From NCBI GenBank assembly GCA_037074705.1, contig CM073594.1:78989009-79053008 (forward strand): 64,000 bases of DNA. Direction: 5' to 3'. The notes under the pieces were generated by a model that was given only the letters and a program-made list of their open reading frames with translations, did not search any database and was not told the origin of the DNA. Positions within the stretch are counted from its first letter, which is position 1, and each line of letters begins with the position of its first letter. The DNA comes from Zhengitettix transpicula. Its lineage: Eukaryota; Arthropoda; Insecta; Orthoptera; Tetrigidae. The position numbers and the translations under genes are program-made. Positions 2,027-56,577 of this stretch are shown piece by piece.

Positions 2027-3168
2027 TGTAGTAATTGGTAATTAAGGCATTGTTCTAATTGAGAAGTTGAATTGTAGAGGACTCATTATTGGTGGATATA
2101 GCGGACGCCGCAACAAACCGGCAAGGCAAAGAAAGCATTGTTGATCGGTCGAGAAGGTTTTACGCGCTCAAAATTTACGAGACGAACGAACAGTCGGGCA
2201 GCAGACAGCAAATAGAACAGACGAAAAGAACGAACAGTCGGGCAGCAGACAGCAAATAGAACAGACGAAAAGAACGAACAGTCGGGCAATGAACGGCGAG
2301 GCATAAAGACCTGAAAAGTCAATTTTACAAAAGTAGTACAGTCAGGCAATGAACGGCGAGGTGTAAAGACCACAAAATTCTAATACACGAAAAGTTGAAC
2401 AATTTAGTCAGTCAGCAGCGAGAATGAAAACGGTCTAATTTAAAGAACGAGAAAGTGTTCCAATAATATGTACGCTGTTATATCAAAAATGCAGAAATTG
2501 AACTAGTCTTCAGTCAACAGACAAAACCAATGAGGTGCATTTTTAACAAAAATCCACGAGACCTACAAATCCAGGTTGCAGTAAATCATCGAGAATCGAC
2601 AAATTTATGTTAAACCAACTAACAAACTACGCTAATTACAGTCTGTGAACATTTAGAGCCTGTGAGAACTTAGAATCAGTGATATCCCCAAAATTGTGCT
2701 GGAAAAGTTAAAATGAGACCTGGGCTGCCGTAAGTAGAAAGAAAACTTTAAAATCATTGTAAACCACGTTTAAAAGATAAACGTCAGATCGTTCTTTAAT
2801 TATCGACAAAATGAGATCTTTAATTATTCAGATCATTCTTTATTTCTTGATAAAAATTAAAATTGTTTAAATTCAATCTTTAGTATTATTTCTTCAGCAA
2901 CAAATTTCGTCTATATTCAGACGCATTGATTCCCATATAAAGCAAATGTAATTTTTGTGATTTCGATTATATAAATTCTGCCATTATCAAACCCAGTTCA
3001 AGACCCTGAGATCCCAAATATTTTGTAATTTGAATACTTGTTTTAAAATTGTTAATAAATCTTGTTTAATAGTTTTCACGTAATAGTTCTTTTCATTTAA
3101 AAACGCCACATAATTCATATCCAGATTTATTGTCAAAGGATGTTAAGCTATGTAAAGAAATTATTACA
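2027..3168 (+). mobile_element. Solo LTR, family LTR-A
   Basis: The element starts TGTAGTAATTGG and ends TTATTACA, and is flanked on both sides by ATAA (2,023-2,026 and 3,169-3,172), which reads as a 4-bp target-site duplication. Internal landmarks shared with the other LTR-A copies are the early 'taattaaggcattg' segment, 'cgtcagatcgttc' near 2,782, and 'atcaaacccagttcaagaccctgagat' in two parts near 2,987. There is no internal region or gag/pol on either side, so it is a solo LTR of about 1,142 bp, presumably left by LTR-LTR recombination. Length, ends and duplication support this; the superfamily (probably Gypsy-like) is inferred. Confidence 0.75.
2183..2360 (+). repeat. Minisatellite in the U3 part of LTR-A
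   Basis: The motif 'cagtcgggcagcagac' starts at 2,191 and 2,235, and a third unit starts at 2,279 (44-bp period). A related 60-bp step follows at 2,339 ('cagtcaggcaatgaacggcg'). Other LTR-A copies carry different short tandem repeats at the equivalent place. Confidence 0.8.
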
Positions 3169-4360: not shown

Positions 4361-5615
4361 ACTTTAAATATGAGTCGTATATTTGCTAAAAGCATGATCC
4401 TATCTCGCGCTTGAACATATATAATTTCACCATAGAACAATTATGAATAAATGTTATATACTTCTAAAATGTTTCTTGAAAGTGAAGATTGCTGTGTCAG
4501 TATTAAAGTGTTAAAGTGTTATGAGCTAATAAAACTATAAGTGTGGATAGCATATTTTTCACTGTATATAATATTTCCATTATTTTATAAACTAAAATAA
4601 AATAACGTCAAAAAAATCGGCACTATACGGGAATTGTTTGGGGAAATGTGAAGTCAACAGGACATATCCTTAAGTGTAGTTGAGTGCTTGGTAGGACCAC
4701 TTGGACTAAATGCCATTCTACTTTCTGGCTGGTAGCACTTCATTGGGATGTAACGGCTCCAAACGACTCGCTTGGATGGTCGGTCGATTTTGCGACTTGT
4801 CTCTCTCGGGCCATTAGTTTATAGGTTTCAGTGGTGATCTGATCAAAGTTCGCAAGAATAGTACGAACTACGGAACTGGGATAAGATCTCAATGTTTTCT
4901 TCTTGGCAATTAATACCTTATCCCACACGAATACCTTTCAAATATGCAGACGTGAGTTACTAAGAAATTTTAACACACCGAAGGTATATATTTTTATTTA
5001 TTTGTTAAATAACTAATTTTTGTTTACATGTAATTTGTAGTATTGCTATCATATAAAATTATGGAATGGATAATAGTGATGTAAATCTAAAAATAACTAA
5101 CACAGTAATATATATAGAGCCAAACAATTAGCTTACATTAAAAAATGAATTATGAATACAGTTTTATGATTGCAATAATAATAGTATACTTGTTCCAGAA
5201 TGGAGTAAATGTAATATAACATAACTCAAATCCAGAAAGTTATATTAATAATTGAAGTTTCTAACAATTTTAATTGATATTCTTGTTGGGCACAAATTGT
5301 TTGTTATACTTTTAAGATACGTATTGGTAATTGTAGAATAAAATTCTGTAGGTCAGTTTATAGTTAATAGTTGCACAGTTACAGTTTTTTCATCGAATAA
5401 TGATGTATAAAAAACTTTAAAATCAAAGCTGCCGGACGTTTCGACGCGGATTAGAGTCGTTTTTTGACTGCCTTTAAATTTTACTTAATTTAAGTGTTTC
5501 TTTTTTAATTTTGTCTGTTGTAAAGATCGTTAACATTATTAATAATGATGTATGACTAGAGCTGAAACTATTCGTGAAGTATTAAATTTATATATATATA
5601 TATATATATATGTAT
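4361..5615. other. No gene; ends in an (AT)n tract
   Basis: AT-rich. An (AT)n tract at 5,590-5,611 immediately precedes the LTR-A copy. The segment 'gccggacgtttcgacgcggattag' (two parts around 5,431-5,456) resembles the tail motif of hammerhead-bearing retroelements on the minus strand, but no complete core is present. Confidence 0.4.
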
Positions 5616-6530
5616 TGTAATACCAATTAAACATGCTATTAATTGTTTTTAATATAATTTAATTGTTGGCGGTACGGGTGCTTAAAGACGACAATCAAGG
5701 CGGGTCTTTCTTTGTTAACAATGGAGACCGCGCGCTTAGAGAACTCAGTCTGCGGCGAGAGGCGAGGTGGATAAAGTGTGCGTGGAGTATGCGTCGAGAA
5801 CTGGGACATAGCAGTTCGGTCCACACAGAGAAATAAAAACAGTAAAAGTCTGCGGATACAGAATTATGAATAGGGCTATATAGGAAGTCCAACGGCGAGA
5901 TATAATAGTTTACATAAAACGCAAGTAAACAGTTTTGACGGAGAGACTTATAAAATCACAGTTTGGAAGCAGAAGTTTTGCTTCACAAACTGAACTAATT
6001 TTCGCATAGAGAGGCTTTGAGGAGATCTACGTCCGGCAACTGGCTGAGGATAGAAGAGATCCAGAGCAACTACCGTGTGTTCGAAATCGAATGGGTAGAA
6101 TCAGTGTTAAACAGACTGTTTAGTGGGCGTTGACTTAAAGATACAAGAGTCCGAACTGGTACCAATAGCACTGTCGTGAGTACAAAACAATTATTAATGA
6201 CAGTGAACGATCATTAAAGGGTATAGTCAGATTTCGTTCGCGTTTTTCTTTTCATTCGTTTTCTTTTACTTTTGTATTTAATATTGTATTCCGTTAACTC
6301 AATGAGTTTGGATTGTTAATATTTTAGTTAAATGTATTTGTTCTTTCTATCAAACCCAGTGGTGACCCTGAGATAATGAGAAATTCAACGTAATTGATTG
6401 TAAAATTATAAAGCTATATTTTCATGGAACGCCACGAATTAATAAAATAAAAAATTGAAATATTTGTTTCTCAAATTGATGGCGTGCAAAGCAGGGATTA
6501 TAATATGTAATTATCAATAATAAATTTTTA
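5616..6530 (+). mobile_element. LTR-A copy, 3' end uncertain
   Basis: Begins TGTAATACC directly after an (AT)n tract. It contains 'gtatagtcagatttcgttcgcg' (in two parts, about 6,220-6,242), 'atcaaacccagtggtgaccctgagat' (about 6,350) and AT-rich U5-like sequence, in the order seen in the other copies. It runs into another (AT)n tract at 6,533-6,551. The usual TTATTACA end is not clear, so the right boundary is approximate. No internal retroelement coding sequence adjoins it. Confidence 0.6.
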
Positions 6531-6551
6531 AATATATATATATATATATAA

Positions 6552-8239
6552 TTTTCGCATAGAGTTCTTTTAGGAATTTTTAAACCCGGCTACTAATAAT
6601 ATTTACGTTTTATCTAATAGTTTTTGGAATTGATATTGAATATCATTTAAGAAGCAACTCCAGACGGCGAAAAGACACTTTCGTCACCTTGCCAATAGAA
6701 TTTCTCCGAGGGTTGGAAAAAAAAAAGGATTTGATGATAGATGTAACGAGACCTTTCTTCTGTTTTAACAATTTTTTATTCTAATACTGTTATTTTTTTC
6801 GAACCATTTAATAAATTACAACTTTTTAGTTAAAATACTTTCATTCTTCACATGGCTTACAATCAAGTGATTTTTCTTTATCGTCACGTTTCATGTATTG
6901 GAAAATCCGAAAGAATGTAATCTAAATTCCTGCCTGTCTCTCTTGCCTTTCAGCTTTGTTTTACCACTTTTCTCAAGGAACCGATCCGACTGATTTCAAT
7001 TAAATGTTTCTTTTTTGTATTATAAGAATTTTTTATCAACAACTTCCGTGTTTAAGTAAACTCACAATCGGTCGAAAACTGATTTTATTTCCTTGGACAG
7101 TAATTTACATCGTTTTACCGAAAAAAAATGAATAAATAATTTTCCTCTGAAGTGGTAAATAACGTTGAGCCATTGTTAGCCTGCCGTCCGCCATATAAAA
7201 AGCGTGAAACTTGAAATGAAGTCTAATTTATTTTCCTTTTACGGGCAAGTTTTATTAACTGAGGAAAAATATTTGTTTTTTATTGATACACTATTGAATA
7301 CGTGCCTATTTATATGTTTACAAAAACTTCGCAGAAGGAACAAGTTGAAGTTTTTGTATATACATTTTCAAACCCGTTACTCCACCTCCAATTGCGGTGC
7401 TTGTACATAATAAAGCGCAGGGGCGAGTCTCGATTTCTTCCCGTTTTTTTCGGTTTATAAATGATAGTTCGACTATCTCCGTCCGAAACTTCAGCGAGTC
7501 CCGATTCCTGCACACCTCCGTAACAACCAAAAACCACAATCGATTCTCAATTTTTACTGCAATCATCCTCTATCAATTAAATTATAAACCATTGCCCGTT
7601 TTTGTAATGAAGTTTATTACCTAAAATTCCGCAATTTTTTAAAAATTTAAATGGCGAATTCCTTTTTTCAGTGGGTTTTATCAACGAATATATTAAATCT
7701 ACACTTAAGAAAACTAAATCGTCTTATGAATTAGCTACCAGAACAACAACTTTAAATTGTATGCCCTTTAAAAATGAAATAATATTAATATTTTTAAACT
7801 GTCTGAATTATTCAATTGTTATATATAATACAGTTTATGACCAGTTTCAGAGAGATTATTAGATCAATTAAACAACAGTTTTGTTACGTATTAATTTTTA
7901 TCTACTTCAAGTTTGTAATTAAATAAATTGTCAGAAACTGCATTATTAATTGGTGATTAATTTTAATGTTATTGAATTATTTGCCTAAAATTCAAATGAA
8001 ATAAGGAAAGATTGTTTTATTGATTTTTCATAATTTTTGTAATCGTGATTCTTACAAGTTTTCTGCATATATTTTTGCAGAAGTTCTGGACAATTTTTCT
8101 TTATTTGACACAGCTAATAATGTAGCATACAGCATTTTTAATAAATAATACATGACATGAAAATAAAAATTGCTGATGAAAATACATTCGACATGATTTT
8201 AATGTAGTATTGGATCGGGAAGGAATTGTTTACTTCTGA
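6552..8239. other. No recognisable gene
   Basis: Several open frames of 60-82 codons overlap on both strands at 7,200-7,860. They have low-complexity composition and no motif I recognise. No splice-bounded exon or RNA gene is evident. Confidence 0.45.
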
Positions 8240-24849: not shown

Positions 24850-25225
24850 TTAGCGTAATAATACGGGATCATAGCAATTATTGAGTTTCATAGTGTCTAT
24901 TTGTACATTAATAGCTGTGATGTTTGATTTAATGTGAAGCATCTCTGAAATGAGTCTGGAATTGTACCTGGTGTCAATGGCTAAAATTTTAGCATTTTGC
25001 CAATCAAATGTATGTTTAGAATTGATTATATGTTTGGATACTACAGATGGTTTATCAATGGGAAGTTTGATATTAGACATATGTTCCTTGATACGTGTAT
25101 TAAGGGAACGTTTTGTTTGCCCTATGTAGCAGGAATTGCAATTAGAGTAAGAGATTTTGTAAACAACACAATATTTGCTGTAGGTGTCAAGGGGTCCTTG
25201 TGGTTTTTAATCATAATAATTTTTG
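24850..25225 (-). pseudogene. PLE GIY-YIG endonuclease domain (C-terminal fragment)
   Basis: Minus-strand translation gives 'VVYKISYSNCNSCYIGQTKR' followed by SLNTRIKEHMSNIKL. This is the Cys-containing linker and the GIY-YIG nuclease core of Penelope-like elements (YIG, then the R-x3-R and E-H positions). It continues through 'VSKHIINSKHTFDWQNAKIL' and ends in LLR. In an intact element this domain nicks the target for retrotransposition. Only the last ~125 residues remain, without a reverse transcriptase, so it cannot act alone. The same domain occurs on the plus strand at 60,690-60,960. Confidence 0.85.
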
Positions 25226-25315
25226 AATATTTGAATACATTTAAATATTAGAATAAATTTGTGATGTAGAAACATTACAGCTATTAATGTACAAACAGAC
25301 ATAAAGTAACACAAC

Positions 25316-26310
25316 AACACTTCGCGCGTGCTTGATGACCGCAATTCACAGACGAGCAATGATAGATCAGTTATCTATGTCCAAAAAGAGGACTACAGCA
25401 AAAGATCGCGAATTTTTTTCCAACTTGTATATGTTGTGACCAATTTGGAAAACTTAGGAAAAGGTTCTGTTGCCTATAAACCGCGAAATTTTGCACCTCT
25501 TTTCAGTTTTTCCGCTAATAGCAAAAGCATGATGCATTCTATTGAAAATAATGTTAAGTAAAAAATTGTAGAGCATAAAATTGTAATCGAATGATGTCGA
25601 GTACAAAACTCGGTCAACGAAGTGGTAGAAATCGTTCGTCAAGTTTACGAGATTTTACGTCATTTACGAAAAGAATGCAGTTTATCACAATTCTAGTGCT
25701 GATATCTCCAAAATGGTCGACAGTAAACTAATTTGTCATAGATTAAAGGTTTTAGAGAATTTAATTCTCTTTCCAACGAATGATCAAGTTTTAATATTCA
25801 CTGAGAATGGCCGAAAATGGCTGTACAGCGCAGGCCATTGCGCTAATATTAGGGCGCTGAGGATGGGAGTTGTGGAGCTGGCCTCCACTGAACTTCACGT
25901 CTATCTTTCGTCGACTTTCTCTGCGAACATCAGCTGACTTCTCTGCTAGCATCGCTGACGCCTCATCCGCCAGCCGTAGCGGAGAAGGGGAAAAAGAGAT
26001 CGGAGCGCAGAGAACTTCTAGTCGACGCCGAGTCCAAAGGATAAACACTGCTTAATTATGAACTCTCATTGTGCAAAAATAAGATTCTTTTCTTATGGAG
26101 TAAAAAAACAATTAGAGTCCAGTTCGTTCCGAGCAATTGACCAGTGAACATGATTTAGAAAAGAGAAATAAAATATTGAAAAAATAACTACTCTCGTCAT
26201 TTAATCGTAACCCGTGCTATAACACACAAACAAATAATATATATTATAATTTTAAATTTTCTTCCCGTGTGAGGTGTCGCAACTGATAATACTACGGAGT
26301 CCGCCACATA
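25316..26310 (+). repeat. Left arm of a large palindrome (LTR-like)
   Basis: Reverse complement of 26,369-26,906, except for about 465 bp (25,393-25,879) present only here. Shared segments from outside in are 'gcgcgtgcttgatgaccgca', 'ctatgt-caaaaagagg', 'cctccactga-cttcacgtc', 'gagtccagttcgttccgagc', the polyadenylation-like 'gaaataaaatattgaaaaa', 'cttcccgtgtg' and 'actacggagtccgccacata'. The polarity (promoter-like part, AATAAA, then the PBS side) suggests an LTR reading left to right with its 3' end at the palindrome centre. Confidence 0.82.
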
Positions 26311-26355
26311 CTCCAGATCAGAAGGTTGCGTGTTCAAATCAAGTCGGGGTCACCA
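26310..26355 (+). other. tRNA-Trp 3' half (46 nt) including CCA
   Basis: The sequence runs from the anticodon loop (ACTCCAGA, anticodon CCA) through the anticodon-stem 3' strand TCAGA, the T-arm 'GGTTGCGTGTTCAAATCAAG', and acceptor TCGGGGTCA, followed by CCA. Nuclear tRNA genes do not encode CCA, and the 5' half is absent, so this is not a tRNA gene. Read on the minus strand, it is a retroelement primer-binding site (TGGTGACCCCGAC) extended far into the tRNA. The T-arm has one change (AAG for the usual ACG). Confidence 0.85.
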
Positions 26356-26368
26356 ATTTTTCTCCCCT

Positions 26369-26906
26369 ATGTGGCGGACTCCGTAGTATTATCAGTTGCG
26401 ACACCACACACGGGAAGAAAATTTAAAATTATAATATATATTATTTGTTTGTGTGTGATAGCACTGGTTGCGTTTAAATGACGAGACTAGTTATTTTTTT
26501 CAATATTTTATTTCTGTTTTCTAAATCATGTTCACTGGTCAATTGCTCGGAACGAACTGGACTCTAATTGTTTTTTTACTCCATAAGAAAAGAATCTTAT
26601 TTTTGCACAACAATGAGAGTTCATAACGCTTCCGAGAATTACGCAGTGTTTATCCTTTGGACTCCGCGTCGACTAGAAGTTCTCTGCGCTCCGATCTCTT
26701 TTTTCCCCTTCTCCGCTACGGGTGGCGGACGAAGCGTCAGCGAAGCTAGCAAAGAAGTCAGCTGATGTTCGCAGAGAAGTCGTCGAAAGATAGACGTGAA
26801 GCTCAGTGGAGGCTATCTCCACAGAGTTCTAGGCCTCTTTTTGTACATAGGTACTGATCTATAATTGCTCGACTATGCATTGCGGTCATCAAGCACGCGC
26901 AAAGTG
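26369..26906 (-). repeat. Right arm of the palindrome (LTR-like), followed by PBS on the minus strand
   Basis: Read on the minus strand, this arm runs from 'cactttgcgcgtgcttgatg' through a polyadenylation-like AATAAA to 'gagtccgccaca'. Then come a ~13-nt AG-rich spacer and the TGGTGACCCCGAC primer-binding site at 26,355-26,343, the order LTR-PBS of an LTR retroelement. The left arm repeats the same LTR in the opposite direction beyond the tRNA segment. Divergence between arms is a few percent by eye. Confidence 0.8.
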
Positions 26907-53409: not shown

Positions 53410-54190
53410 GGGTGGCCTGAAAAATTTCCGACCTCAAAGTGAAGATGGCAGCACTAGTAAATAAAAACTAGTGAATTTCGTTGTTCATCTCTTGACAGTT
53501 ACTCACCAAAGTTGGAAGCGCAGTTGTTATGTAACAGTCGTTTGAGTGAGTTGATGTAAGTGTTTTTGGTGAAAATGGAGAAAATGGAGTATCGAGCTGT
53601 TATTAAATATTTGTTTTTGAAAGGCAATACGCCTACACAAATCAAAGATGAGTTGGATTCTGTGTATGGGGACACTGCACCATCATTTACCACAGTGAAA
53701 TTTTGGGCAGCTGAACTTAAACGTGGCCGTAAGAGCTTGGGAGACAATAAACATTGGGGACGTCCAAAAACTGCAACTACCGACGAAAACATCGCCAAAG
53801 TTCACCAAATGGTGCTACACGATCGCCGAATTAAAGTGAGAGAGATAGCAGAGGCCATGAGAACGTGTTTGTCACATATTAAATCAACATTTAGGCATGA
53901 GAAAGCTGTCTGCGCGTTGGGTACCGCGTTTTCTCACGTTAGACCAAAAACGTGTTGGAATGGACATTTCCAACGCTCTGTTGACGAAGTTTAGGCGCAA
54001 TAAATCCAAGTTTTGGCGCCGATAAATTACTGTAGATGAAACTTGGATACATCATTATACGCCCGAAACAAAAATACATTCCAAACAGTGGACTTCAAAG
54101 GGGGAACCGGCTCCAAAAAAAAGTTTTTTCGGCTGGGAAAGTGATAGCGACTGTTTTTTGGGATAGTCATTGAGTCATTTTAATCGATTA
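53410..54190 (+). mobile_element. Family-2 mariner, 5' 60% (unit 1), truncated by duplication junction
   Basis: 5' TIR GGGTGGCCTGAAAAATTTCC after TA. The transposase frame (53,575-53,994) reads MEYRAVIKYLFLKGNTPTQI, FTTVKFWAAELKRGRKSL and TTDENIAKVHQMVLHDRRIK. It then goes out of frame at the shared deletion at about 53,858. The first catalytic block (VDETWIHHYTPETK) is legible in the shifted frame at about 54,030. The element stops abruptly at 54,190. Confidence 0.9.
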
Positions 54191-55354: not shown

Positions 55355-56577
55355 GGGTGGCCTGAAAAATTTCCGACCTCAAAGTGAAGATGGCAGCACT
55401 AGTAAATAAAAACTAGTGAATTTCGTTGTTCATCTCTTGACAGTTACTCACCAAAGTTGGAAGCGCAGTTGTTATGTAACAGTCGTTTGAGTGAGTTGAT
55501 GTAAGTGTTTTTGGTGAAAATGGAGAAAATGGAGTATCGAGCTGTTATTAAATATTTGTTTTTGAAAGGCAATACGCCTACACAAATCAAAGATGAGTTG
55601 GATTCTGTGTATGGGGACACTGCACCATCATTTACCACAGTGAAATTTTGGGCAGCTGAACTTAAACGTGGCCGTAAGAGCTTGGGAGACAATAAACATT
55701 GGGGACGTCCAAAAACTGCAACTACCGACGAAAACATCGCCAAAGTTCACCAAATGGTGCTACACGATCGCCGAATTAAAGTGAGAGAGATAGCAGAGGC
55801 CATGAGAACGTGTTTGTCACATATTAAATCAACATTTAGGCATGAGAAAGCTGTCTGCGCGTTGGGTACCGCGTTTTCTCACGTTAGACCAAAAACGTGT
55901 TGGAATGGACATTTCCAACGCTCTGTTGACGAAGTTTAGGCGCAATAAATCCAAGTTTTGGCGCCGATAAATTACTGTAGATGAAACTTGGATACATCAT
56001 TATACGCCCGAAACAAAAATAAATTAAAAACAGTGGACTTCAAAGGGGGAACCGGCTCCAAAAAAAAGTTTTTCGGCTGGGAGAGTGATGGCTACTGTTT
56101 TTTGGGATAGTCATTGAGTCATTTTAATCGATTATCTTCAAAAAGGAAAAAACAATTCTGGAGAATCATTACTTGACAAGCTGAAGGCAGAAACGGCCAC
56201 ATTTGCATACAATGAAAATCCTGTTTCACCAAGACAACGCACCGTCTCACACCTCAGCGGTTGCCATGGCGAAAATCCACGAATTACGGTTTGAACTGCT
56301 TGACCATCCAGATCTAGCGCCAAACGACTTCTTCTTGTTCCCTCATCAAAACATTGCTCTCGGAGGACAGAGATTTTCGTTAAATGAAGAGGCAATCACC
56401 TTCGTGAACAATTAGTTTTCAGAGAGAAACGCCGAGTACTTTTTGGACGGGTTACAGAGATGGGAGCAACGATGGGAGAAGTGTGGAGAGTTACAAGGAA
56501 ACTATGTTAAAAAATAAAATAAAAATTCAAAAAAAATATCTTCTATCATTGTTGGGTGGGAAACTTTTCAGACCACC
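55355..56577 (+). mobile_element. Family-2 mariner, end to end (unit 2)
   Basis: Left TIR GGGTGGCCTGAAAAATTTCC at 55,355; right TIR as complement of GGTGGTCTGAAAAGTTTCCC ending at 56,577. Length about 1.22 kb. It carries the transposase pseudogene described separately. The right flank is not the continuation of the left-flank L sequence but another copy of L from its beginning. Confidence 0.9.
55520..56515 (+). pseudogene. Family-2 mariner transposase pseudogene (DD30D spacing)
   Basis: The DNA-binding part is open to 55,806. There 'gccatgag-aacgtgtttgtc' lacks 11 nt between ATG and GTTTGTCAC (7 nt instead of the 18 seen at 59,777-59,794) and shifts the frame. The continuation in the new frame (GMRKLSARWVPRFL, LDQKRVGMDISNALLTKFRR) meets TAA just before ITVDETWIHHY. 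The second block is FHQDNAPSHTSAVAMAK. The third, 'LLDHPDLAPNDFFLF', lacks PYSP, leaving 30 instead of 34 residues between catalytic Asp. There is also a stop after TFVNN. Inactive by several lesions; two of them are shared with other copies. Confidence 0.92.

Follow-up and report, generated by a model that had tools for sequence, protein, structure and literature searches.

A palindromic LTR insertion carrying a tRNA-Trp copy with CCA in Zhengitettix transpicula: a probable product of primer run-on

How does a chromosome come to hold two long terminal repeats (LTRs) in opposite orientation, joined through a piece of tRNA-Trp that ends in CCA? We analyzed such a locus in a 64,000-nucleotide stretch of DNA from Zhengitettix transpicula (C5:78989009-79053008, here called the window), comparing it with other copies in the same genome (993.6 Mb, 337 contigs). 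The preliminary description of the locus had reported two reverse-complementary arms of about 540 bp with 58 nt between them. The inversion stands, but the dimensions had to be revised: the arms are LTRs of 438 and 454 nt, lie 61 nt apart and form a 953-nt insertion (25871-26823; Table 1). The two outer inverted stretches, which are 88% alike, lie beyond the GAGT duplication.

Table 1. Architecture of the palindrome and its borders (window positions)
Feature	Position	Strand	Remarks
Left outer inverted stretch	25318..25395		Part of the target, outside the insertion
Target duplication, left copy	25867..25870		GAGT
Acceptor arm (LTR)	25871..26308	+	438 nt; U3 start TGTGGAG; U5 end CCGCCACA
Junction nucleotide	26309..26309		T, identical to the first spacer base
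tRNA-Trp nt 31-76 with CCA	26310..26355	+	46 nt, tRNA-sense
Segment matching the ordinary 18-nt primer-binding site (PBS)	26338..26355	-	From the alignment of 30 loci
Spacer between LTR end and PBS	26356..26369	-	14 nt, ATTTTTCTCCCCTA; same in normal copies with small changes
Donor arm (LTR)	26370..26823	-	454 nt; U3 start at 26823
Target duplication, right copy	26824..26827		GAGT
Right outer inverted stretch	26830..26906		Part of the target, outside the insertion

Palindromes are a known cause of failure in long-read assembly, and the proneness of such assemblies to palindrome errors speaks for an artefactual fold-back. Against this, 20 of the 437 aligned positions distinguish the two arms, nine being private to each, and indels separate them further; at the remaining two positions, both states are common elsewhere. 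Since both arms have thus decayed independently, and since a GAGT duplication flanks them, we give a fold-back virtually no chance: the palindrome is real. Its arms are sisters in two trees (0.974 and 0.968).

A single nucleotide, the 46-nt tRNA-Trp segment with its CCA and the 14-nt spacer make up the 61-nt centre. Compared with the host tRNA-Trp gene (L009) plus CCA, the tRNA segment is mismatched at 1 of 46 positions, and the CCA is not encoded by the gene, which bears out the earlier report of a tRNA-Trp segment with a non-genomic CCA. The order proposed for the minus strand, i.e., LTR, 14-nt spacer and TGGTGACCCCGAC, was likewise recovered. At the junction, the A following the T at 26309 may be either a spacer base or tRNA nt 31. 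ARAGORN and Rfam scans of the window gave no matches.

On either side, the insertion ends in the U3 terminus of the same LTR family (TGTGGAG...CTCCACA). Normal copies of this family are organized as LTR-internal-LTR over about 2.8 kb, with U3 at one end and U5 at the other, and all three cleanly bounded ones are flanked by 4-bp duplications (ATTT, CATC and TATC); the tandem copies at L053 were left out of this set. Unlike them, the window structure has U3 at both ends and GAGT on both sides, and we therefore read it as an insertion bounded twice by U3. Recognized LTR termini left and right, together with a duplication of the family's length (GAGT/GAGT), are what insertion by integrase would leave. 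Two other readings of the borders were rejected. For LTRs spanning out to 25316 and 26906, the outer stretches matched the window alone among the best 40 of 2200 candidates scored; for a DNA transposon with CACTT ends, they lie outside the GAGT duplication and by eye show no duplication of their own.

A different origin would be that the palindrome propagates as an element in its own right, or that it represents the normal structure of a family primed by tRNA halves. A search with the region covering tRNA, spacer and LTR end yielded 41 matches, from which 30 PBS-bearing loci were read. Their alignment gives a PBS complementary to the 3' end of tRNA-Trp, and 25 of the 30 pass from a PBS of about 18 nt into the element leader, the exceptions being the window (L017), L018 (in L047), L030 (in L048), L035 (in L050) and L037. 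These loci are partly non-independent, with three tandem relatives on C59, L031 as the second arm of L050, and L046 being convergent. Half-tRNA priming with a 46-nt PBS, raised in the preliminary description as a possible rule of the family, is thus not its norm. The search for an extended PBS in intact copies had a divided outcome: the ordinary PBS prevails, but in several normal copies the leader beside it is tRNA-Trp-like to 26-27 nt (88-89%, with a 1-nt gap). Among the copies matched, this likeness extends no further and falls short of half-tRNA priming. In L054 and L052, the leader repeat units start with the final PBS bases (GACGTGAT), so that the adjoining leader is partly tRNA-Trp-like. 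At L037/L049, around position 3032, the LTR and 13 nt of PBS are followed by unrelated sequence, and L062 contains a duplication with LTR pieces of the family at a spacing of about 4.55 kb (899-1067 and 5454-5622; 2112-2168 and 6667-7089).

The copies read encode Gag and protease only. In Pfam, the ORF of L051 matches DUF7041 and a retroviral protease but neither reverse transcriptase (RT) nor integrase, and it contains one Gag motif CX2HX9CX3C (L051 being the sole copy scanned); a search of solved structures with the Gag-protease ORF gave no match. Members of the CsRn1 clade (PwRn1, AgCR) are described as having a tRNA-Trp PBS, a CX2HX9CX3C Gag motif and LTR ends TGT...ACA or slight variants, and the target duplication of PwRn1 is 4 bp (PMC2582038). 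The family shares the tRNA-Trp PBS, the motif and the 4-bp duplication, and its LTRs end in TGT...ACA; it differs from the clade as described there in that its copies hold Gag and protease only and that the window insertion has two U3 ends and no internal region (PMC2582038). Judged by PBS, Gag motif, duplication and LTR ends rather than by RT, these properties would agree with a non-autonomous, CsRn1-like Ty3/gypsy family.

Eight cases of convergent LTRs were examined, the window included. Six of them are U3-to-U3 insertions with differing junctions and perfect 4-bp duplications, i.e., of the same length as in the three clean normal copies. Based on local composition, the joint chance of the six duplications is about 6e-14, before allowing for the choice of six out of eight. 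In L047 (C3), the tRNA copy covers nt 31-76 but lacks one base and has another altered; it is followed by AATTTA and a sense LTR ending CGTTCCGAG (duplication CATT). An inverted junction, as sought at other loci, is thus seen here with the same 46-nt tRNA copy as in the window. In L048 (C2), LTR, spacer and 12 nt of PBS lead to LTR position ~27 (AAAC), while in L050 (C4) the donor arm consists of LTR, spacer and a PBS copy of exactly 18 nt and is joined via GTGAT to the Gag-protease region (TATT); here the acceptor site lies on the sense strand about 1.6 kb inside the element, from where the sequence runs antisense back to the U3 end. L068 (C1) joins LTR, PBS and about 23 nt of leader to a sense LTR ending CGTTCCGAG (GATT), and L067 (C2) joins LTR 1-362 to LTR 164 without a PBS (GATC). 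In these insertions, the donor arm stops at a point where extension of a plus strand could have halted, and the acceptor arm returns to U3. The arms of L047 are sisters in both trees (0.895 in the first, 0.677 in the second), those of L050 in the first (0.803) and those of L068 in the second (0.83); the L067 arms do not group as sisters (second tree). L047 and L068 represent two independent junctions at one acceptor site, directly after CGTTCCGAG in the LTR.

With these loci at hand, the idea of a propagating palindrome or of half-tRNA priming as normal structure can be weighed. The 46-nt tRNA copy common to the window and L047 and the tRNA-Trp-like leader of several normal copies are in its favor, but the ordinary PBS in 25 of 30 loci speaks against it, as do the differing junctions and targets of the six insertions and the placement of the window and L047 arms in separate LTR subfamilies (first tree). 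We rejected a propagating palindromic family on the latter two grounds and find the explanation as a whole scarcely credible.

In repeat-rich DNA, nested insertion followed by rearrangement does occur, and LTRs brought into opposite orientation by nesting could later have been fused by deletion or inversion. The two remaining convergent cases, L046 and L066, look complex, as this explanation would have it; a clean duplication was not found in either, and both stand outside the six. However, exact U3 ends with matching 4-bp duplications occur in six of the eight cases. The earlier alternative that an element with a long PBS was inverted after insertion is disfavored by the same exact U3 termini within the target duplication. 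As an orientation control, a 29-nt U3 start pattern was searched with up to 3 mismatches and hit 173 places (96 + 77). Among the 100 of these that were listed, four convergent and no divergent U3 pairs lie within 1 kb, and the tally is unchanged out to 100 kb. Since nesting in opposite orientations predicts equal numbers, plain nesting was rejected within this sample, and we judge later rearrangement very improbable.

The L066 locus (1386-1591) resembles a full-length element in which an inverted U3 start is attached to a 3' LTR broken within U3, with mismatched flanks (GATC/GTAC). In L067 (1300-1950), the insertion occupies the GATC centre of an approximately 50-bp palindrome, and its left flank is shared by L066 (1355-1390). 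L067, the L066 flank and L055, whose duplication is also GATC, may reflect a preference for palindromic targets.

The best explanation, and in our judgment a probable one, is run-on into the primer tRNA, followed by a template switch to a second plus strand and insertion of the two-U3 product by integrase. It starts from what can be read in the DNA: the structure of the unit, its U3 ends and duplication, the tRNA copy with CCA, the recurrence and the types of junction. From these we infer that synthesis ran on beyond nt 58, that the normal transfer failed and that the strand switched to a second plus strand. Plus-strand strong-stop DNA would start at the polypurine tract, which would fix the U3 end, and would copy U3-R-U5, the spacer, the 18 PBS nucleotides of the tRNA-Trp primer and onward to about nt 31. 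The extra 28 nt have no match to the leader beside the PBS, so that the 3' end would not be extendable in normal second strand transfer. It would then be joined to another plus strand at the U5 end of that strand, which would be copied back as far as its own U3 start. The resulting U3-U5-tRNA-U5-U3 duplex, with U3 on each side, would be inserted by integrase with a 4-bp duplication. We also infer the order of the strand events, completion of the complementary strand and RT as the enzyme making the junction. Copying to the anticodon arm, a reverse switch to another LTR and integration had been proposed at the outset, and L047 and four further two-U3 insertions support this proposal.

Run-on with template switching is further supported by the tRNA copy with CCA starting at nt 31 in both the window and L047, despite their different LTR subfamilies, and by the L050 junction, which lies exactly at the end of the 18-nt PBS copy with 5 shared nt (GTGAT). 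On the other hand, the L047 junction contains a 6-nt filler and that of the window insertion has no more than 1-2 shared nt, as expected if host end-joining united two short cDNA ends, one with a tRNA copy, before integrase inserted the product via the remaining U3 ends. The varied acceptor breakpoints also fit end-joining, whereas the exact stop with shared nucleotides in L050 and the 5-6 shared nt at the L080 junction do not; we consider end-joining unlikely, though deserving of serious attention. Further points against run-on and switching are the lack of a sister grouping for the L067 arms, the lack of a clean duplication in L046 and L066, the lack of an empty site among the six related target repeats read, and a recurrent stop at nt 31 (32 in the window if the shared base is counted) that has no known block or obvious cause. 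As L067 carries neither PBS nor tRNA, run-on is not necessary for a U3-to-U3 insertion. A cut tRNA half as template, also considered earlier, fits poorly, since cleavage within the anticodon loop (nt 32-38) would give a template that lacks nt 31.

Similar tRNA copies were sought in the genome with a 34-nt pattern from tRNA-Trp nt 43 to CCA (up to 3 mismatches). Of 13 places, two are tRNA genes and 11 have CCA or a near form beside other sequence, with copies spanning 34-48 nt. By eye, the copy starts at nt 31 in the window, L047 and L086 (the last with a 4-nt insert), at 29-31 in L055, 35 in L080, 38 in L081, 39 in L079, 40 in L084, 42 in L085 and 43 in L082 and L083; none of the 11 loci found with this pattern, which reaches nt 43, extends beyond nt 29. 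The sequence after CCA defines five groups (window and L047; L055 and L080; L081 and L083-L086; L079; L082), of which the last three are putative LTRs. In L055, the run-on strand enters a protease-like region (by eye) between two LTRs (duplication GATC), and in L080 the junction falls within 5-6 shared nt (CAGATC) and leads into a tandem repeat, presumably the leader of this copy. A kinesin-like ORF (recognized by eye) is found close to L086, and capture at host sites is therefore possible; no 4-bp duplication was seen by eye in L083, L084 and L086. Similar copies at other loci of the genome point to an error of copying that recurs, not to a new way of priming. A broader proposal, which we see as evenly poised, is that reverse transcription has run-on as a recurrent and heritable side branch. 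A strand that overshoots the m1A58 stop would be shut out of normal transfer and could be rescued by capturing another plus strand, a site inside the element or a break in host DNA; the genome would then keep a fossil record of the stops (nt 31, 35 and 38-43), with two-U3 insertions as a regular minor product.

In two-LTR circles, U5 is linked to U3, and a solo LTR consists of one LTR by itself. Both share with the window insertion LTR ends without the element's internal region, but in the window U5 faces U5 and U3 forms both outer ends. In HIV-1, native primer tRNA is described as stopping the plus strand at m1A58, with a minor stop at nt 37 in the anticodon loop, whereas unmodified tRNA is copied to its 5' end and disabling TRMT6/TRMT61A lengthens the product past m1A58 (PMC13191261). 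The same source reports m1A58 in tRNA-Trp primers and, for lentiviruses and spumaviruses, a primer over-extension sequence comparable to the tRNA-Trp-like leader (PMC13191261); it has been argued that the second transfer of HIV is possibly intermolecular (PMC5651808). Copying past m1A58 into the primer tRNA would thus be shared with over-extended HIV-1 plus-strand strong-stop DNA, but the HIV-1 products described are cDNA (PMC13191261), whereas here such DNA lies inserted in chromosomes, is linked to other sequence and has its boundary at nt 31 more than once. Half-tRNA priming is named for copia (PMC5371799), and fungal Helenus elements are reported to have a PBS to the anticodon loop (PMC10886601). 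Common to these and the window insertion is tRNA anticodon-region sequence in a retroelement; their PBS pairs with that region (PMC5371799, PMC10886601), whereas the PBS of the present family is matched to the 3' end of the tRNA and the anticodon portion would be an aberrant extension. According to PMC13191261, the plus-strand stop on the primer tRNA has been studied mostly in HIV systems. Among the titles and abstract openings listed in our literature search, which covered few subscription journals, none describes such insertions. If true, chromosomal run-on copies would make this failure countable and datable in nature, reveal the tRNA positions that stop the enzyme in vivo, and show integrase accepting two U3 ends.

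The target itself is repetitive. Most of the left flank (25316-25870) belongs to a repeat that is abundant elsewhere, as judged from the best 40 of 2182 candidates scored; the outermost 46 nt of the flank had no match in these 40. Several genome copies of this repeat are close inverted pairs, and it may thus be a fold-back element. The six related repeats continue GATG.GAGTGAC, whereas the window reads GAGTTCTAGG; none matches the window right flank, and the target therefore seems to have been rearranged already. To the left, a 118-aa ORF on the minus strand (24850-25206) has a GIY-YIG domain (Pfam, 7.5e-05), which we take to be perhaps part of a Penelope-like element, and an inverted copy of 32 nt of this ORF is present at about 25270-25301. 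Further along the window, two identical 144-aa mariner-like ORFs (named by eye; 53560-53994 and 55505-55939) lie 1945 bp apart, which suggests a tandem duplication.
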